This document shows positions 8,282 to 25,911 of a DNA stretch of 64,000 bases, one piece after another. Both the position numbers and the translations under genes were made by a program. Below the pieces are notes generated by a model that had not been told where the DNA came from, made no database searches, and saw only the letters and a program-made list of their open reading frames with translations. Source of the stretch: Pseudobdellovibrio exovorus JSS (lineage in GTDB: Bacteria > Bdellovibrionota > Bdellovibrionia > Bdellovibrionales > Bdellovibrionaceae); contig NC_020813.1 in NCBI RefSeq assembly GCF_000348725.1, forward strand, positions 806,001-870,000, read 5' to 3'. The first letter of the stretch is position 1. Each line of letters opens with the position of its first letter.

Positions 8282-9828
8282 TGAGTAAAAAAGGACGCTT
8301 GTTTTTTGCATTAGGACTTCTAAGCTTATTAGCACTTGTTGGTTTGTTCTTCGCGGTTGGTGTGTGGATGCCATTTATGTGGGTTATCATTGCAACGGCC
8401 GTTATTGCTTTTGCTGGTGGTTTTTATCAAGATCGTAAAACGATCAAAGAGTTCTTCACCATGAAAGCCACAAAGCATGGAATGAATATGGGTGTCATGG
8501 TTCTATTAGCCATTGTGTTCTTAAGTGCGATTAATTTTACTGGAGCAAGACACTACAAAGCTTTTGATTTTTCAAGTAACCAAATCAATTCTATTTCTGA
8601 ACAGTCTAAAAACATTTTAAATTCGTTAGATTCAGATTTACGCGTTTACTTCTTTTATAAAACTGGAGTCGAACGTTCTGAGGAAAATAAACGTCTTTTC
8701 CGCGAGCTAGTGAAGCACTATCAGGATGTAAACACCAAGGTAAAGTTGGATATAGTTGAAATCAACGAAAGGCCCTCATTGGCGCGTGAGTTTGAAGCGA
8801 CCAATGGTGCTGGGGAAGCTTTTCTGGACTATAAAGGTAGCCGGAATAAAATTGAAAACTACAGCGAACAAGACTTTACAAATGCCATCATCAAGGCGAC
8901 TAGAAAAAGTAAAAAGAATATTTACTTTTTAGAGGGCCATGGCGAGCGTAGTTTAGACGATGAAAAAAGCGAGTTGAGTTTGTCCGGCTTTCGACAGATG
9001 TTGGAAAAGAACTCTTACGAAGTTAAGAAGCTGAGTTTAACTAAGGAAACTAGAGTACCTAGCGATGCCCATGTGCTTGTGATTGCGGGTCCTCATCAGC
9101 AAATTTTAGCAGCGGAAGCAAAGGCCATTGAAGACTATTTAAAAAATGGCGGACATCTATTTTTGTTGTTAGATGAAAAAACACCGATGGGCCTTGGTGG
9201 ATTACTCAAGTCATTTGGATTAGAGCTAGAGCCACATTATGTCTATAACGTATTTAACTCGCCAATGGGGCAAGTTGTAAATGCGCAAGCGGCGACAGTG
9301 GCGGTGGACTATTCGACGTCAAATGACATCACGAAGTTATTCACGAGCAGTCAGATGACACTTTTTAGAAATCCACATTCTTTCAAATTAACGGAGCATG
9401 ACAGTGCGATTAATCAAGAAGTCATTGTTAAGACACCTCAGTCATCTGTGGCCTTAGCTGATGTTGACAGTACAGATTATACAGGCACTCCGAAGTCATT
9501 TAACTTAGGCGTTCATGTCCGAGGTAAACTTGGAGGATCTGCAAAAGAATTTTCAGCCGTAGTGTTTTCGGATGTGGATTTCTTAAGTAATATTTTGCTT
9601 TATCAAAACCTTAATCGTGACCTAGCTTTAAATACTATCGCTGCTTTGGCTCAAGAAACCGATTTGATTTCGATATCGGCAAAAGAGCCTCAGGCGACGA
9701 AGATGTTATTAAGTCCACCTGAATTCAATCAATTTTTTAAATTTACAGTGGTGGGGCTATTCTTGCCTTTGCCATTTGTATTTATGATTCTAAGTATCGT
9801 CCTTTGGTATAAACGGAGACACGCTTAA
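8281..9828 (+). CDS. GldG-like auxiliary component of ABC system
   Basis: This 515-aa protein has two N-terminal membrane helices (about residues 8-50 as a pair) and another near 75-92. A large periplasmic region follows with the ABC_transp_aux pattern (YFFYKTG, NIYFLEGHGERSL, LVIAGPHQ, GGHLFLLLDE), and a C-terminal helix (about 490-508) ends in a basic tail. I chose ATG 8281 with GGAGGG just upstream; the extra GTG at 8269 lies in that SD region. This matches GldG / 'DUF4350-like' partners of GldF. The next gene starts at its stop (TAATG). Confidence 0.83.
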   Translation: MSKKGRLFFALGLLSLLALVGLFFAVGVWMPFMWVIIATAVIAFAGGFYQDRKTIKEFFTMKATKHGMNMGVMVLLAIVFLSAINFTGARHYKAFDFSSNQINSISEQSKNILNSLDSDLRVYFFYKTGVERSEENKRLFRELVKHYQDVNTKVKLDIVEINERPSLAREFEATNGAGEAFLDYKGSRNKIENYSEQDFTNAIIKATRKSKKNIYFLEGHGERSLDDEKSELSLSGFRQMLEKNSYEVKKLSLTKETRVPSDAHVLVIAGPHQQILAAEAKAIEDYLKNGGHLFLLLDEKTPMGLGGLLKSFGLELEPHYVYNVFNSPMGQVVNAQAATVAVDYSTSNDITKLFTSSQMTLFRNPHSFKLTEHDSAINQEVIVKTPQSSVALADVDSTDYTGTPKSFNLGVHVRGKLGGSAKEFSAVVFSDVDFLSNILLYQNLNRDLALNTIAALAQETDLISISAKEPQATKMLLSPPEFNQFFKFTVVGLFLPLPFVFMILSIVLWYKRRHA

Positions 9829-11231
9829 TGAAAATCAATCGCACGGCTCTTTTCGCCTTTCTGACTCTTGTGACAGTATCTATCGTATATCTTTTCGATT
9901 ACGATGCTGAAAAAAAACAGGAAGAAAAGGACACAGCAGTTGTTTTGGACTACGACATGGACCAGATCAACTATTTCCAAATAATTAAAGGCGAATCAAA
10001 ATTAGCTTTGCAAAAAAATGAACAGGGCTGGTCTTTATTAGAGCCTATTCAAGACATTGCTGATAATGATAATGTGGAAGATTTTTTGAAAAAAATGACC
10101 ACTGAAAAACAAATATCAGTCGTTAAGAATACTAAAGAAGATTTAACTGAAATTGAACTGAAAGAATTTGGCTTGGATAAGCCAGAAGCTGTTTTTGTTT
10201 TTAAAAATAATTTGGGAAATACTAGACGAATTTCAGTGGGCTCTGTACAGAATTACGAAGGTGATAGTTACTTAAGAATTGACTCGGAAAATCGCGTTTT
10301 ATTAGCGCGTTCTGTATGGACCAGCCAAGCGAAAAACGAAATGATTTTTTATCGGGATAAACGACTCTTTCGTGGCAACTTAGCTCATATCGATAACATC
10401 CGTATTAAATCTTTACGTGATGATTTCCAGATGCATAAAATCGACAATGTTTGGGCTGGCAAAGGGGAAATAGTTCCACTTGATCAGAACAAAGTGCGCG
10501 AGTTGCTAAGCAGTATCGTCGATGCAAAGATCGAGGCTTATTTATTTGAAGGGGAGCCATCTCATCGAGTTATTCAAGAAAAGGGTTTAGAAAAAGAACA
10601 GGGTATCTATTTAGAGCTCTCTTCTTCTGACACGAGCTGGGCGGCAGCTATCAATCTTCATGTACAGGATAAAACTTTATACGCTCTAACAGAACGACCA
10701 ACATTTCTTGTTCGTCTAGAAGTGGGAGCATGGGAAAAGTTTGGTAATCTTGAAATGGATGGCTTTAAAGATCGTACAACGGCATTAGCTTTCAATCGCA
10801 AAGAGGTGTCTAAGTTGTACTTTAAAGAAAATGGGGCTGAAAAAGAGATCTCCGTTGAAAATGGTAACTGGTCTTTAAAGAAAGGCGATACGTTTCAGCT
10901 ATTAGATCAGCAATTAGTGAATAATACCATTGATCAGATCCACGAAATGAAAATCTCTGACTTTATTGAAGACGAAAGCGGTAAAACAAAGTTTTCTGGC
11001 AGTAATATTCTGATATTAAAATCTGCAGCAGATAAACTATTGTTACAATTAAACTGGGGACCGTCTTTCACGAAAACTAAAGATGGACAGAGTCAGGATT
11101 ATTACTACACGCGAACACATCAATCAGATGTGATTTTTGCCATGGAAAAGCCAATCATTGATTCACTTGCTTTGACAAAACTAGTTGAAGTTAGCGGAGA
11201 CAAGCAAAAGCAAGGTGCACATGTTGAATAG
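9828..11231 (+). CDS. DUF4340 domain protein of the GldFG-type operon
   Basis: This 467-aa protein has one N-terminal membrane anchor (about residues 7-23). A repeated periplasmic beta-rich unit follows: 'W.L..P....AD...V..FL..' appears near residues 65-85, and similar motifs recur around 205-225 and 340-370. That pattern is typical of DUF4340, a family regularly encoded after GldG-like proteins. The molecular role is unknown; it probably works with the three upstream products at the envelope. The end overlaps the next gene's start region by 11 bp (GHMP kinase ATG at 11221). Confidence 0.8.
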   Translation: MKINRTALFAFLTLVTVSIVYLFDYDAEKKQEEKDTAVVLDYDMDQINYFQIIKGESKLALQKNEQGWSLLEPIQDIADNDNVEDFLKKMTTEKQISVVKNTKEDLTEIELKEFGLDKPEAVFVFKNNLGNTRRISVGSVQNYEGDSYLRIDSENRVLLARSVWTSQAKNEMIFYRDKRLFRGNLAHIDNIRIKSLRDDFQMHKIDNVWAGKGEIVPLDQNKVRELLSSIVDAKIEAYLFEGEPSHRVIQEKGLEKEQGIYLELSSSDTSWAAAINLHVQDKTLYALTERPTFLVRLEVGAWEKFGNLEMDGFKDRTTALAFNRKEVSKLYFKENGAEKEISVENGNWSLKKGDTFQLLDQQLVNNTIDQIHEMKISDFIEDESGKTKFSGSNILILKSAADKLLLQLNWGPSFTKTKDGQSQDYYYTRTHQSDVIFAMEKPIIDSLALTKLVEVSGDKQKQGAHVE

Positions 11232-20924: not shown

Positions 20925-22127
20925 ATGAAAGTGACCTTTGACGATATCAAAGCGGCACAGAGTACAATTCAAGACTTGATACTCAAAACTCCCTGCGAGA
21001 TTTCCAGTTCCTGCTCTAAATTAGTCGGATCTGATATCTATCTTAAGTTAGAAAACAATCAACGTACGGGCAGTTTTAAAATGCGTGGAGCCGCAAATAA
21101 GATCGCATCGCTATCTGCACAAGAAAAAGCGAAAGGTGTGGTGGCTTGCTCTGCCGGAAACCACGCGCAAGGGGTCGCCTTAAGCGCGAGCTTAAGTCAT
21201 GTTAAGTCAGTGATTGTGATGCCCGAAACAGCTCCGTTAACCAAAGTTCAGGCTACGCAAAACTATGGCGCTGAAGTTATCCTGCATGGGCAATCTTTTG
21301 ATGAAGCCAAAGAATATGCATTCCAGTTAGCAGATCAGAAGTCTTATGTTTTTGTTCATCCGTATGAAGACGAAAAGGTGATTGCAGGACAGGGAACTAT
21401 CGGACTTGAAATCGCAGAACAAGTGGCTGATCTAGATACAATCATTGCACCTATTGGTGGCGGTGGGTTGATCAGTGGTGCGGCGATTGCGTTAAAAGAA
21501 TTAAACCCAAAAATTAGAGTTATTGGCGTTCAGGCCTCTGCCGTGGATACGATGTATCAGCTTTATAAAACACGGGACTTCAAGGCACCAACACACACGG
21601 GTACTATTGCCGATGGTATTGCGATCAAAGTGCCAAGCCGTGTGATGTATGAAAAATTTATCTCTCGTTATGTCGATGATGTGGTGACTGTGGCTGATGG
21701 TGATGTGGCGGAAGCCATTGTTTTCTTGCTTGAGCGTGCCAAGAGTGTGGCAGAAGGAGCCGGTGCGGCCTCTTTAGCTGGTGTCTTGACTGGTAAGATA
21801 AAACTGGGAAAACGTAACTGCGTTTTAGTCAGTGGCGGTAATATTGACCTCAATATGGTTTCACAAGTGATTCAACGAGGACAAATCCAACGCGGACGTC
21901 TGAGTGAAATGTCGGTGATTGTTCCTGACGTTCCGGGCAGTTTAAGTCAGCTCACTAAAATTTTAGCTTTGCACAAAGCGAATATTTTAGAAGTGCATCA
22001 TGATCGTGTAAAAAACAGTTTGGCTTTAAAAGAGACGAAAATCGACTTTGTCATTGAAACGACCAGCCACGAACACATTCAAAAAATACGTGAAGCTTTA
22101 AGCCAGTGGGGAGCGAAGGTTCAATAG
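20925..22127 (+). CDS. ilvA: Threonine ammonia-lyase (threonine dehydratase)
   Basis: This 400-aa PLP enzyme deaminates threonine to 2-oxobutyrate. It has the PLP-Lys motif RTGSFKMRGA (about residue 48), SAGNHAQGVA, and the phosphate-binding loop PIGGGGLISG (about 175). A C-terminal ACT-like domain (about 330-400, starting near MSVIVPDVPGS) fits the short single-ACT form, intermediate between TdcB and full-length IlvA. Its role may be isoleucine synthesis or amino-acid catabolism. With prey-derived amino acids available, catabolism is plausible but not shown. It is convergent with the hydantoinase-B-like gene. Confidence 0.87.
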   Translation: MKVTFDDIKAAQSTIQDLILKTPCEISSSCSKLVGSDIYLKLENNQRTGSFKMRGAANKIASLSAQEKAKGVVACSAGNHAQGVALSASLSHVKSVIVMPETAPLTKVQATQNYGAEVILHGQSFDEAKEYAFQLADQKSYVFVHPYEDEKVIAGQGTIGLEIAEQVADLDTIIAPIGGGGLISGAAIALKELNPKIRVIGVQASAVDTMYQLYKTRDFKAPTHTGTIADGIAIKVPSRVMYEKFISRYVDDVVTVADGDVAEAIVFLLERAKSVAEGAGAASLAGVLTGKIKLGKRNCVLVSGGNIDLNMVSQVIQRGQIQRGRLSEMSVIVPDVPGSLSQLTKILALHKANILEVHHDRVKNSLALKETKIDFVIETTSHEHIQKIREALSQWGAKVQ

Positions 22128-22135
22128 ATAATTGA

Positions 22136-22159
22136 GGAAGTGTACCTAAGTATACTTCC
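22136..22159. terminator. Hairpin between convergent genes
   Basis: GGAAGTGTA (22136-22144) pairs with TATACTTCC (22151-22159) as a 9-bp stem with one G-U pair and a 6-nt loop. It lies 9 nt after the ilvA stop and overlaps the last codons of the opposite gene (stop at 22146). The downstream T-runs are weak. It is likely a shared, bidirectional transcription end. Confidence 0.45.
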
Positions 22160-23393
22160 AAAGTATTTCTATTTGATCACCTTTTTTTAGCTCGTATTGT
22201 CCTCGTCCTAAAGAAACATTGTTGAGCTTTAAATCGTTCGAAGTGCCATCAGCTTTGTAATTATTTTTAATCGTTAAAGAAACTTTGTCGTCGCTGTTTA
22301 TATCAAAACAAACCTGATTCAAGTTGTCCGTTCGTTTCATCTTCTTTAAATCGATCACTTTGTTGTTAATAAGATCTTCGAACTGCTCTAACTGAATTTT
22401 GTCTGAGCCCACAAAGTTATTTGAATGGTAATGATCTGAATATAAAGAAAAATATAAAAAGTTAGTTAATTCAAAATTTTGCTTAGATTTTCTGGCGTGC
22501 GAGTTTAATTGAATTAAATTGTATTCACACAATTGTGAGCAGATGGTCTGCAGTTCAAAGTTGTGTTCTCCGGTAGGGTGTGATCTTGATACGATCGATT
22601 TCGGAGGCAAGATGATTTTAATTTTATCTAAAATGGACTGAGTAAAAAACTCGTTAACGGCATAGAAATCAATAATCTTCTTAATCAGGACACTTTCGAT
22701 AACATGAGATGATGTGTAGATATCAGGGCAGATATTGGTATTAGTAAAATCCAAAGTGATCATTTTTAAGTTCTGTTTTTCTTCGGCAGAAAAACGTAGG
22801 CGGATGCATGAGCCAGAAGATAATTTATACTGAGCATCTGTGCTGCCTTGAGCTTTATTGTTGAACTGGGTATCAAAAATGCCTTGAGTGGCTTTTAGCC
22901 ATTGCTGCTGTTGCTTTGGATCGCCAATGGTTTTTAATAGCGATGTCGATTTAAGTACAGTGTCGACTTTATACTTTTGGTATTCTAAAAAAGATTCAAA
23001 CTCAGCAGAGTATGGACGGGAACCAATAAGGGCTTGCCACACGAATTCATTTTTTACACCTTGATCAAATATCGGCGTCGGCGGAATTTTGAAATCGACA
23101 TTGAAGTTGTTTTCGTCCCAAATCAGAAACAAGTTAGGACTCAGGCACGATATGAAAATCAATTTACTCAGTTGATAGCCGCCATTTTCGGGGTCATTTA
23201 AAAGGAAAAAGTCCTGAGGCTTTGGGTTTAAATATTTTTTAACAATTTGAAAGGCGACAAGACGTGTCGTGGTCAATACCTCAAAGTTCTGATCTTTCGA
23301 GTAAAGCAAACTGCCCTCAGCATTAACTAAAGAGCAGGATTTGTATTTTCCAAGTAATGTTTTAATGCAATGTTTGTAGGTCAGAAAGTTCAT
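22146..23393 (-). CDS. Degenerate hydantoinase B/oxoprolinase-like protein
   Basis: This 415-aa protein has the HyuB landmarks in eroded form. The N-terminal region (about residues 20-36) reads SCSLVNAEGSLLYSKD, as in HyuB's 'S..l.D..G.l.a'. The central block is DFFLLNDPENGGYQLSKLIF (about 61-80), as in HyuB's 'GD.f..NDP..GG.HL.D'. The C-terminal YELKKGDQIEILWKYT stops where HyuB has its 'GD.l.i.TPGGGGYG' ending. Normal HyuB is longer (over 500 aa), and the His/Asp of the HL.D motif are replaced. It follows the HyuA-like gene by 11 bp. A non-enzymatic or novel function is my inference. Confidence 0.55.
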   Translation of the reverse strand: MNFLTYKHCIKTLLGKYKSCSLVNAEGSLLYSKDQNFEVLTTTRLVAFQIVKKYLNPKPQDFFLLNDPENGGYQLSKLIFISCLSPNLFLIWDENNFNVDFKIPPTPIFDQGVKNEFVWQALIGSRPYSAEFESFLEYQKYKVDTVLKSTSLLKTIGDPKQQQQWLKATQGIFDTQFNNKAQGSTDAQYKLSSGSCIRLRFSAEEKQNLKMITLDFTNTNICPDIYTSSHVIESVLIKKIIDFYAVNEFFTQSILDKIKIILPPKSIVSRSHPTGEHNFELQTICSQLCEYNLIQLNSHARKSKQNFELTNFLYFSLYSDHYHSNNFVGSDKIQLEQFEDLINNKVIDLKKMKRTDNLNQVCFDINSDDKVSLTIKNNYKADGTSNDLKLNNVSLGRGQYELKKGDQIEILWKYT

Positions 23394-23404
23394 AATAATC
23401 CGTT

Positions 23405-24718
23405 TTACACAGCTAACGCTGCCTTAATAATTTCCTTCGGCCATGAAAAGTCTTGGACACGAGTGCCAGTTGTGTCGGGTCCGAAGACATCGACAAGGGG
23501 ACCGAAAAGTAGAGGCTTTTCTTTTTCTGAATGAAATAGAATTTCGTGGGCCATGTTATCAATTAAATTTTGCTTCAACTCGTTCAGTTTCAGGGATAGA
23601 TGAGGATTCTTTTGTCCTTTTTCTAGAACTGAAAGCAAGTTTTGAATTTTAGCTTTCAGTGTATCCTGAGAAATTTGGGAAAAGAGGTTTGAAGCAAGGT
23701 CATTCTTTTGTAAATCTGCATGAAATAGATCCAACATAAGAGGTTTGATCGCTCGCCCAGCAACAACAGGCCCCGGTTCGAACTGAATTGCATGTGGCTC
23801 TGTATCCATAATCGAGAGGTGATTTAACTTTAATTCCGTAAAGGGATGAACACCTAAATCAATATGCTCGCGATGCTTGATCTGCACAGATCCCCATGGG
23901 CTGTTCCAAATATCACTTTGGTAGGAGTTAATAAATTTTAAAGACTCAATATCGAAGTAGGCGCCGAAGCTATGTTTATGACTGCTCACAAAAAATGAAA
24001 GAAAGTCGCTAGCACTGCCAAAGAGCTCACAGTTTTCAAAATTTGTTTGGAATTTATTCTGACAGAAGAAAGAGATCTGCGCTTGCGCTGAAAGATTCTC
24101 TTTAACCTCGTCAATAATTTCCTCTTTTGTGCCTTCACTTCCTGCATTCAGGAGTGTCTTACGTAAGACGCTTTGATTTTCAGGGGAAGGACAGTGAAAT
24201 ATTTTAAGTTCAGCTTTTTGGAAGAAATCAGTGATAAGTTTTTGCTTTTCATCCGAGATGCGATTGGCAGGCAAAGCAATTACGACTTTATTCAGCTCAG
24301 GATTAACTTTTTTTACGCGGCTGAGTTCTTCAGTCAGATAAGCTTCCGTTACTTTTTGTGGATCTATCGGAATAATTAACTGAGTAGCCGCTAGTGAAAG
24401 CGCTTTACTGTCTGTTAATGTGTAAGAGTTTTCAAAGTCCTTCAAGATGACTTGCGAGATACTACCGCCCAGACGAAATTGTCGTAGACGATCAAAATAT
24501 TTAGTGACGATAAAAACAGGAAGTTCCGGATCGTCTTCACCTGTGCTGGTTTTGATATGCTGTTTCACTTGTCCTAAAAGAGACTTTAAAGAAACTTGGG
24601 GTAGAAAAATTGATTTTTCAAATAAGGCTGTAGGCGTTTTTGACTGTGAAATATCAAACAAGCCAATTGTGGCATAAGATTCGCCTAGATACAGAGCAAC
24701 TGCTAGTTTCGACATCAT
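23405..24718 (-). CDS. Degenerate hydantoinase A/oxoprolinase-like protein
   Basis: This 437-aa protein matches HyuA in order but not in motifs. It has an N-terminal strand ALYLGESYATIGLFD where HyuA has a GGTFTD phosphate loop, VFIVTKYFDRLRQF where HyuA has 'VTT.GFRD.L', and a PENQS segment for 'PE.RE'. YFDIESLKFIN replaces 'DMGGTSTDV', and FEPGPVVAGRAIKPLMLD replaces 'DPGPACYGRGG.PTVTDA'. The glycine-rich ATPase loops are therefore gone, and the protein is about 250 residues short. Start is ATG 24718 or 24715. It is paired with the HyuB-like gene downstream; both are divergent from hisC. Confidence 0.55.
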   Translation of the reverse strand: MMSKLAVALYLGESYATIGLFDISQSKTPTALFEKSIFLPQVSLKSLLGQVKQHIKTSTGEDDPELPVFIVTKYFDRLRQFRLGGSISQVILKDFENSYTLTDSKALSLAATQLIIPIDPQKVTEAYLTEELSRVKKVNPELNKVVIALPANRISDEKQKLITDFFQKAELKIFHCPSPENQSVLRKTLLNAGSEGTKEEIIDEVKENLSAQAQISFFCQNKFQTNFENCELFGSASDFLSFFVSSHKHSFGAYFDIESLKFINSYQSDIWNSPWGSVQIKHREHIDLGVHPFTELKLNHLSIMDTEPHAIQFEPGPVVAGRAIKPLMLDLFHADLQKNDLASNLFSQISQDTLKAKIQNLLSVLEKGQKNPHLSLKLNELKQNLIDNMAHEILFHSEKEKPLLFGPLVDVFGPDTTGTRVQDFSWPKEIIKAALAV

Positions 24719-24786: not shown

Positions 24787-25911
24787 ATGAAAGTATCGGC
24801 ACAGATATTAAACCTAATTCCGTATAAACCAGGAAAACCTATTTCTGAAACACAGCGGGAATTTGGTCTGACTGAAATCGTAAAATTGGCTAGTAATGAG
24901 AATCCTTTAGGGCCTAGTCCTAAGGCGGTTGAAGCTGTGCAAAAATATCTTTCTCAGCAGCACCGCTACCCAGATCCAGTGGGTTACGAGCTGGTAAAAA
25001 AAATCTCAGAAAAATGGGATGTTCCGGCCTCTCAGATCGCTTTGGGTAATGGCTCTAATGAAATCATCGACTTACTCATTCGTATTTTTTGTGAACCATC
25101 TACAGATTCGATTTTAACTTCAGAGGCGGCTTTTGTTGCTTATCAAGTCTGTGCTCAAGCGGCGCGTGTTAAAGTTAGAACAGTACCACTTCGCGAAGAT
25201 TTAACGATTGATTTGAAGGCCATAGCGGATCACTTTTTTAGAAATCCCACAGCTAATATTCATTTGATCTTCATTCCTAACCCGAATAATCCAACAGGCA
25301 CAGTAGTTGGTGGAGCTGAATTAGAAGAGTTCCTTGTGCGCTTGGGAAACCGCGACGATGTTCTATTGGTTTTTGATGAGGCCTATACTGAATATGTGCG
25401 CGATCCTAAGTTCAAAGCGGCTTCCAGCTTCTACAAAAAATACTCGAATGTTTTGGTCTTAAAAACTTTTTCAAAAGTCTATGGTATGGCCGGTTTACGT
25501 TTAGGAGCCTTGGTCGCTCCAGAGTACGTATTAGAGTATTACAATCGTGTCCGTAATCCATTTAATGTGAATGATTTAGCACAAGTTGCGGGGATTGCCG
25601 TTTTAGATGATGAAGATTACGTCAAAGCTTCGCAAAAAGCGGTGTGGGATGGGCTTGAGTATTTTTATAAAGAACTCAGTCGTCTTAATTTGAAGTACTA
25701 TCCATCAGAAGCCAATTTTGTCTTATTTGATACTCAGCGTGATGTCGAGCAAGTGAACCTCAATTTGCTTAAAAAAGGTGTGATTTTACGTCCTGTCCAA
25801 AATTATGGCTTCAAGACATTAATGCGTATGACAGTCGGTAATATGGACGAGAATAAAAAAGCGATTGCTGCTATAGAAAAAATGCTGACTGAGGTTTCTG
25901 AAATCGGTTAG
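24787..25911 (+). CDS. hisC: Histidinol-phosphate/aromatic aminotransferase (HisC family)
   Basis: This 374-aa fold-type I PLP aminotransferase has LASNENPLGPSPKA (N-terminus), YPDP, NPNNPTGTVV (about residue 170), DEAYTEYV (about 197) and the PLP-Lys motif KTFSKVYGMAGLRLG (about 225). AGAGGG is 6 nt before ATG 24787. No other histidine genes are nearby; the neighbours are cmk and rpsA. It may therefore act on phenylpyruvate, prephenate or another keto acid rather than in histidine synthesis. Confidence 0.85.
   Translation: MKVSAQILNLIPYKPGKPISETQREFGLTEIVKLASNENPLGPSPKAVEAVQKYLSQQHRYPDPVGYELVKKISEKWDVPASQIALGNGSNEIIDLLIRIFCEPSTDSILTSEAAFVAYQVCAQAARVKVRTVPLREDLTIDLKAIADHFFRNPTANIHLIFIPNPNNPTGTVVGGAELEEFLVRLGNRDDVLLVFDEAYTEYVRDPKFKAASSFYKKYSNVLVLKTFSKVYGMAGLRLGALVAPEYVLEYYNRVRNPFNVNDLAQVAGIAVLDDEDYVKASQKAVWDGLEYFYKELSRLNLKYYPSEANFVLFDTQRDVEQVNLNLLKKGVILRPVQNYGFKTLMRMTVGNMDENKKAIAAIEKMLTEVSEIG

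Follow-up and report, generated by a model that had tools for sequence, protein, structure and literature searches.

The two adjacent genes described here are best read as encoding an ancient pair of pseudoenzymes, descended from the HyuA and HyuB subunits and maintained by selection. We consider it likely that their products, A and B, are two subunits of a non-catalytic HyuAB derivative which was carried already by the common ancestor of the Bdellovibrionia and which binds instead of catalysing. The genes are located in a stretch of 64,000 nucleotides (the window) from Pseudobdellovibrio exovorus JSS, whose genome is one contig of 2,657,893 bp. Both frames are intact, and the coordinates, strands, frames and 11-bp gap given for the pair in the initial annotation proved correct; the window differs in this gap from most relatives, whose A and B genes share 1-64 bp. 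The features are listed below, with residues of the caprolactamase subunits CapA and CapB given for reference.

20925..22127, plus strand: gene of ilvA-type threonine dehydratase, convergent neighbour (conserved locus; context)
22146..23393, minus strand: gene B, short HyuB-like pseudoenzyme, 415 aa
23163..23198, minus strand: place of NDPYxGGTHLPD; B residues 66-77, NDPENGGYQLSK, with the CapB metal ligands His99 and Asp102 replaced by Q and K
23394..23404, minus strand: gap of 11 bp between the A stop and the B start
23405..24718, minus strand: gene A, short HyuA-like pseudoenzyme, 437 aa; predicted ASKHA module with an inserted alpha/beta domain, without the alpha+beta domain and the C-terminal barrel
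23753..23779, minus strand: retained PGP of the adenosine motif (GxxPGP); A residues 314-322, EPGPVVAGR
23927..23959, minus strand: place of the phosphate-2 loop (DMGGT in the enzymes); A residues 254-264, YFDIESLKFIN, by alignment
24665..24697, minus strand: place of the phosphate-1 loop (DxGGTFTD in the enzymes); A residues 8-18, ALYLGESYATI, with Y as the equivalent of CapA Asp11 by alignment columns
24787..25911, plus strand: gene of hisC-type aminotransferase, divergent neighbour of A, 68 bp away (conserved locus; context)

Searches of Pfam and NCBIfam with the single window proteins were uninformative. B by itself matched PF02538 with E=1.5e-4 and 20.9 bits, under the cut-off of 26.8, and A by itself gave no relevant Pfam match, so that the reading of the motifs could not be settled from single sequences and profiles were needed. 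Pfam matches to D5_N, ParM_N, CC_BshC and Myb, along with a weak match to GatE, were set aside as isolated or due to chance. Family profiles were built from 30 A and 32 B sequences, relatives having been collected from 60 genomes and 40 stretches of no more than 19.5 kb. Among enzymes of solved structure, the A profile matched N-methylhydantoinase (8.7e-20), CapA (1.7e-15) and subunits of acetophenone and acetone carboxylases, and the B profile matched N-methylhydantoinase (1.7e-24), CapB (1.7e-15) and acetophenone carboxylase. A canonical HyuAB pair (locus L127) was recovered by profiles built without it, at 2.6e-17 for A and 5.9e-26 for B, and profiles made solely from the window's genus connected this genus with other families of the class. 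PF02538 (Hydantoinase_B) was matched by all 32 B members and PF05378 (Hydant_A_N) by 19 of the 30 A members; only two of the latter matched the Hydantoinase_A domain (best E=0.0016). A and B are true, if very divergent, homologues of HyuA and HyuB, and homology at the level of the families is far beyond chance. It had been proposed in the initial annotation, where a significant profile match was named beforehand as a test, and such matches were indeed found. A profile scan of contigs, covering the window's genus, found 13 loci.

Models built with AlphaFold2 from 14 A and 13 B sequences of the genus reached pLDDT 84 and pTM 0.84 for A, and pLDDT 88.4 and pTM 0.83 for B. For each model, the top seven PDB matches in Foldseek all belong to the HyuAB family (E of family members 1e-10 to 1e-14), and VIA-align gave Z of 13-25 between the models and members of this family. 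The B model was aligned with CapB (6yra_B) at Z 25.1 and rmsd 3.4 over 395/415 residues, and with 5l9w_A at Z 20.2; the A model was aligned with the beta subunit of acetone carboxylase (5svc_B) at Z 18.6 and rmsd 4.6 over 415 residues, and with CapA at Z 14.3. Since these matches span residues 8-512 of the 710 in 5svc_B and 6-496 of the 696 in CapA, A would consist of the ASKHA module and the insert, without the two C-terminal domains. Thus, the folds predicted for A and B are the ASKHA fold and the three-domain HyuB fold, respectively, as the proposed homology demanded, and the models also bear out the earlier remark that the proteins are much shorter than the enzymes. In caprolactamase, two elements of CapA touch CapB: a long helix and an omega loop of the alpha+beta domain. 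Our reading of the alignment suggests that this helix corresponds to residues 378-396 of A and is kept, and that the domain bearing the omega loop is gone.

Neither active site of the enzymes is preserved in the pair. In caprolactamase, substitutions D11A and D295A in CapA left only 0.05-0.4% conversion, and substitutions D41A, H99A, D102A and H124A in CapB less than 0.015% (PMC8453981 Table 4). When the short A and B sequences were aligned with five canonical sequences, the phosphate-1 (DxGGTFTD) and phosphate-2 (DMGGT) motifs were missing from 46/46 short A sequences; in the window they are replaced by YLGESYAT and DIES. Some A members have an isolated Asp in the phosphate-loop columns, and in the window's genus D256 falls in the Asp295 column or close to it, although the loop's GGT has been lost. 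The Asp-His-Asp-His tetrad was found in none of the 47 short B sequences, all of which lack both His, with D or E at the third (Asp102) place in a few; the HHxDIGG segment of HyuB is substituted or deleted across them. B of the window has QLSK for HL.D and has lost the GGGGYG tail. Judged by these alignments, the positions of the six CapAB-essential residues have ceased to make up either of the two active sites, not just in the window but class-wide. The losses are shared by three genomes of family f11, outside the window's order (L144-L146, of which L146 has a split A), so the simplest account is that they arose before f11 and that order diverged, and the sequences are most simply explained if both active sites had been lost already in the common ancestor of the class.

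All the motif losses reported in the initial annotation (ATPase loops, HL.D, GGGGYG tail) were thus confirmed, and its list of preserved landmarks was right in part. NDP..GG (as NDPENGG), PGP...GR and GD are literally present, but VTT.GFRD reads VILKDFENS, PE.RE reads PENQSVLRK and the final TD is LD, though all of these stand at homologous positions. The word "eroded" undersells the case, as the active sites would have been lost in the class ancestor and only the glycine-rich and tail loss would be of genus level, with a few other lineages.

PGP of the adenosine motif is retained in 93-96% of class members, the first G of GxxPGP being mostly lost, and in the class alignment A also retains the PTVTDAN Asp and a Gly close to its C-terminal end, and B retains NDPxxGG, IPPxP and a DF motif. 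Glu at position 258 is present in 85% of the class in place of Thr of the canonical enzymes, and W271, S273, G276 and P292 (Gly of the GAGGGS loop in the enzymes) are other residues of A newly fixed class-wide where the enzymes differ. His and Cys fall short of 75% conservation at every position of both families, so that no replacement metal site was seen; no Lys of the A family reaches 75% either, and N, D, P, G and F account for most of the class-conserved positions of B. Most members other than those of the window's genus retain the glycine-rich segments and GGGGYG-like tail of HyuB and the R/KERiDsxG segment of HyuA, which adjoins the alpha-beta interface in acetophenone carboxylase (PMC5214803). 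All three were lost in the window's genus, and by sequence comparison the glycine-rich and tail loss is specific to this genus and a few other lineages. An apparently independent shortening, of B to about 380 aa, was observed in genus g4 (L114, L121), with dN/dS of B (0.24) above that found elsewhere.

Among 107 Bdellovibrionia genomes, each at least 90% complete, A is present in 69 and B in 70 (about 65%), in the same genomes except for G092, where B begins 232 bp into a contig, at its edge. Genus g6, which we take to be Bdellovibrio itself and which is sampled more densely than any other sister genus in the family, has the pair in all 22 genomes at least 90% complete; named relatives in the window's own genus include Pseudobdellovibrio MAGs and Bdellovibrio sp. 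qaytius. Presence in one genome only was therefore rejected. Across 290 genomes sampled from elsewhere in the phylum, matches to the A profile were mainly fused canonical enzymes of about 1275 residues, with two weak partial matches besides.

The surroundings of the pair are conserved as well. At the 45 loci examined, the order is hyuA-hyuB, with a gap or overlap of -64 to +14 bp except in the split L146; the divergent neighbour of A is hisC or, at loci lacking it, cmk; rpsA comes next wherever the sequence reaches that far, and any ilvA present is convergent with B. Trees (FastTree) of A+B and of the neighbouring genes have 25 of 37 splits in common, against 0.27 expected from label shuffling, which argues for vertical inheritance and led us to reject horizontal transfer as the source of the patchy distribution. 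For the seven sampled genomes that lack the pair (L167-L173), parsimony gives seven separate losses from an ancestral presence. In six of these, ilvA runs directly into hisC or cmk, and in one another gene lies between; there ilvA, hisC and cmk all point the same way, mostly with hardly any space between them. Where the pair is present, it sits between ilvA and hisC and reads in the other direction. Two irregular loci were also observed. In G002, the pair is duplicated: apart from the intact syntenic copy there is another at a non-syntenic place (L104, G002:C24:135000-150264, about 8359-10015), which contains stop codons and is visibly decaying; in G115 (L146, 1933-3252), a stop codon and a gap interrupt A next to an intact B, owing to sequencing error or recent loss.

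Both genes are under strong purifying selection, without the old active site. In close pairs of sequences dN/dS was 0.06 for A and 0.04 for B in the window's genus (L097/L098), and 0.06 and 0.03 in genus g6 (L115/L147), similar to flanking housekeeping genes; the comparison of the window with its nearest relative, in which synonymous sites have reached saturation, gave 0.13 for A. About 75 positions of A are invariant across the genus, and frames of the syntenic copy are intact in every genus member with a complete contig. These dN/dS values reject neutral codon decay, which, like restriction to one genome, had been named at the outset as an alternative. An enzyme fold, lost catalytic residues and purifying selection are all found here, as the definition of a pseudoenzyme has it. 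Two observations speak against our main reading: the pair is dispensable, as seven sampled genomes lack it, and its rate of evolution is about 3.4 times that of its neighbours (39.4 versus 11.7 in total tree length).

As the catalytic residues were lost and yet the pair has been held at one place under strong selection, it probably performs a non-enzymatic, so far undescribed job, and A and B probably form a complex. They would still assemble, probably as A2B2 like caprolactamase, and the complex would bind something rather than drive ATP-dependent lactam or ketone chemistry. Such a scaffold or sensor may bind a ligand, protein or nucleoside-like, that it does not turn over, which would fit the kept PGP, the late Gly of the adenosine pocket and the B-pairing helix together with the new Glu-for-Thr, W-S..G and Pro-for-Gly. 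Shortening in the window's genus has removed the interface-adjacent R/KERiDsxG segment, which also weighs against this reading and could mean that the old interface is partly remodelled in that genus.

Could A and B still be an enzyme, catalysing a different reaction at a rebuilt active site independent of the ancestral metal tetrad and phosphate loops? Strong purifying selection would be expected in this case too, and E258, W271, S273, G276 and P292, newly fixed around the old phosphate-2 and GAGGGS loops, as well as the retained D330, PGP and G406 of A, could belong to such a site. We find this unlikely, however, given that the six CapAB-essential residues no longer make up either site, that the conserved positions of B include no His or Cys and those of A at 75% no Lys, His or Cys, and that two C-terminal domains of HyuA are missing.

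The constant divergent and convergent arrangement across the class might indicate that the pair modulates hisC-cmk-rpsA or ilvA, like some conserved divergent gene pairs. Such a regulatory role is improbable in the light of the pair-less genomes, which retain ilvA-hisC-cmk, and of the genomes without hisC, which retain the pair beside cmk; as each side exists without the other, a strict functional tie to hisC-cmk-rpsA is hard to uphold. Moreover, no DNA-binding domain stands out among the PDB matches of either model in our non-exhaustive fold search.

It is very improbable that, at least in the window's genus, A and B are decaying relics with no selected function. Shortening and additional motif loss in this genus, fast evolution, the seven losses elsewhere, the broken second copy in G002 and the split A in G115 could be viewed as signs of decay, but dN/dS of 0.04-0.06 in the close pair, intact syntenic frames, the invariant positions of A and the confident AlphaFold2 folds contradict it.

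After the Hyu family, the next matches of the model of B residues 1-164 (window 22902-23393) are Roadblock/LC7 domains (Z 8-10.7; 10.7 for 8yqk_A and 9.5 for MglB, 6izw_C), which canonical HyuB may match equally; no PF03259 (Robl_LC7) match occurs in the 107 class genomes, the window's own included. MglA of B. bacteriovorus is without MglB (PMC3983030). We give the resemblance little weight, as canonical HyuB probably has it too, and hardly credit a dedicated Bdellovibrionia regulatory complex in which the roadblock-like N-domain of B would take the place of the MglB-type partner that a small GTPase (e.g. MglA) lacks, with the dead ASKHA subunit as a ligand-sensing arm.

Taken as an ancient pseudoenzyme pair, A and B offer a clean natural case of a repurposed enzyme complex: a two-subunit metabolic enzyme, both active sites of which were apparently lost before the class diversified, kept as a pair at one locus. 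Its presence throughout the g6 genomes makes its role open to genetics in a tractable predator. The transferred names hydantoinase and caprolactamase should be treated with caution in annotation, as they imply a reaction that these proteins very probably cannot perform. In the open-access literature, as judged by titles and abstracts of the hits and with subscription papers outside its scope, we found no description of the pair.

The closest known systems are caprolactamase CapAB of Pseudomonas jessenii (PDB 6YRA), which has two subunits and both folds in common with the pair, and, grouped with it, 5-oxoprolinase and ATP-dependent hydantoinase/N-methylhydantoinase (7hk5, 9h03). In contrast to all of these, the short pair lacks the phosphate-1 and phosphate-2 loops and the Asp-His-Asp-His metal site, A lacks the alpha+beta and barrel domains, and B of the window's genus additionally lacks the glycine-rich polyproline-II segments and the GGGGYG tail. 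Acetone carboxylase (5SVB, 5SVC, 5M45) and acetophenone carboxylase (5L9W) have the same folds as A and B, and the likeness extends to the R/KERiDsxG segment beside the alpha-beta interface, kept by most short-pair members outside the window's genus; unlike these carboxylases, the short pair is much shorter, lacks the ATP and metal residues and shows no gene for a gamma subunit at its locus. Homologous subunits matched by the same profiles are also found nearer at hand, in the canonical HyuAB of 706 + 586 aa at L127 (5646-9517), in a genome (G042) that also holds the short pair, and in the fused enzymes of about 1275 aa from family f18 of the phylum (L148-L150, L155). Unlike the short pair, these lie at other loci and have intact ATP loops. 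The four fused enzymes retain the metal motifs, and HyuB of L127 retains GHQADIGG but has QNND in place of HLPD, which suggests that its metal site may be altered too.
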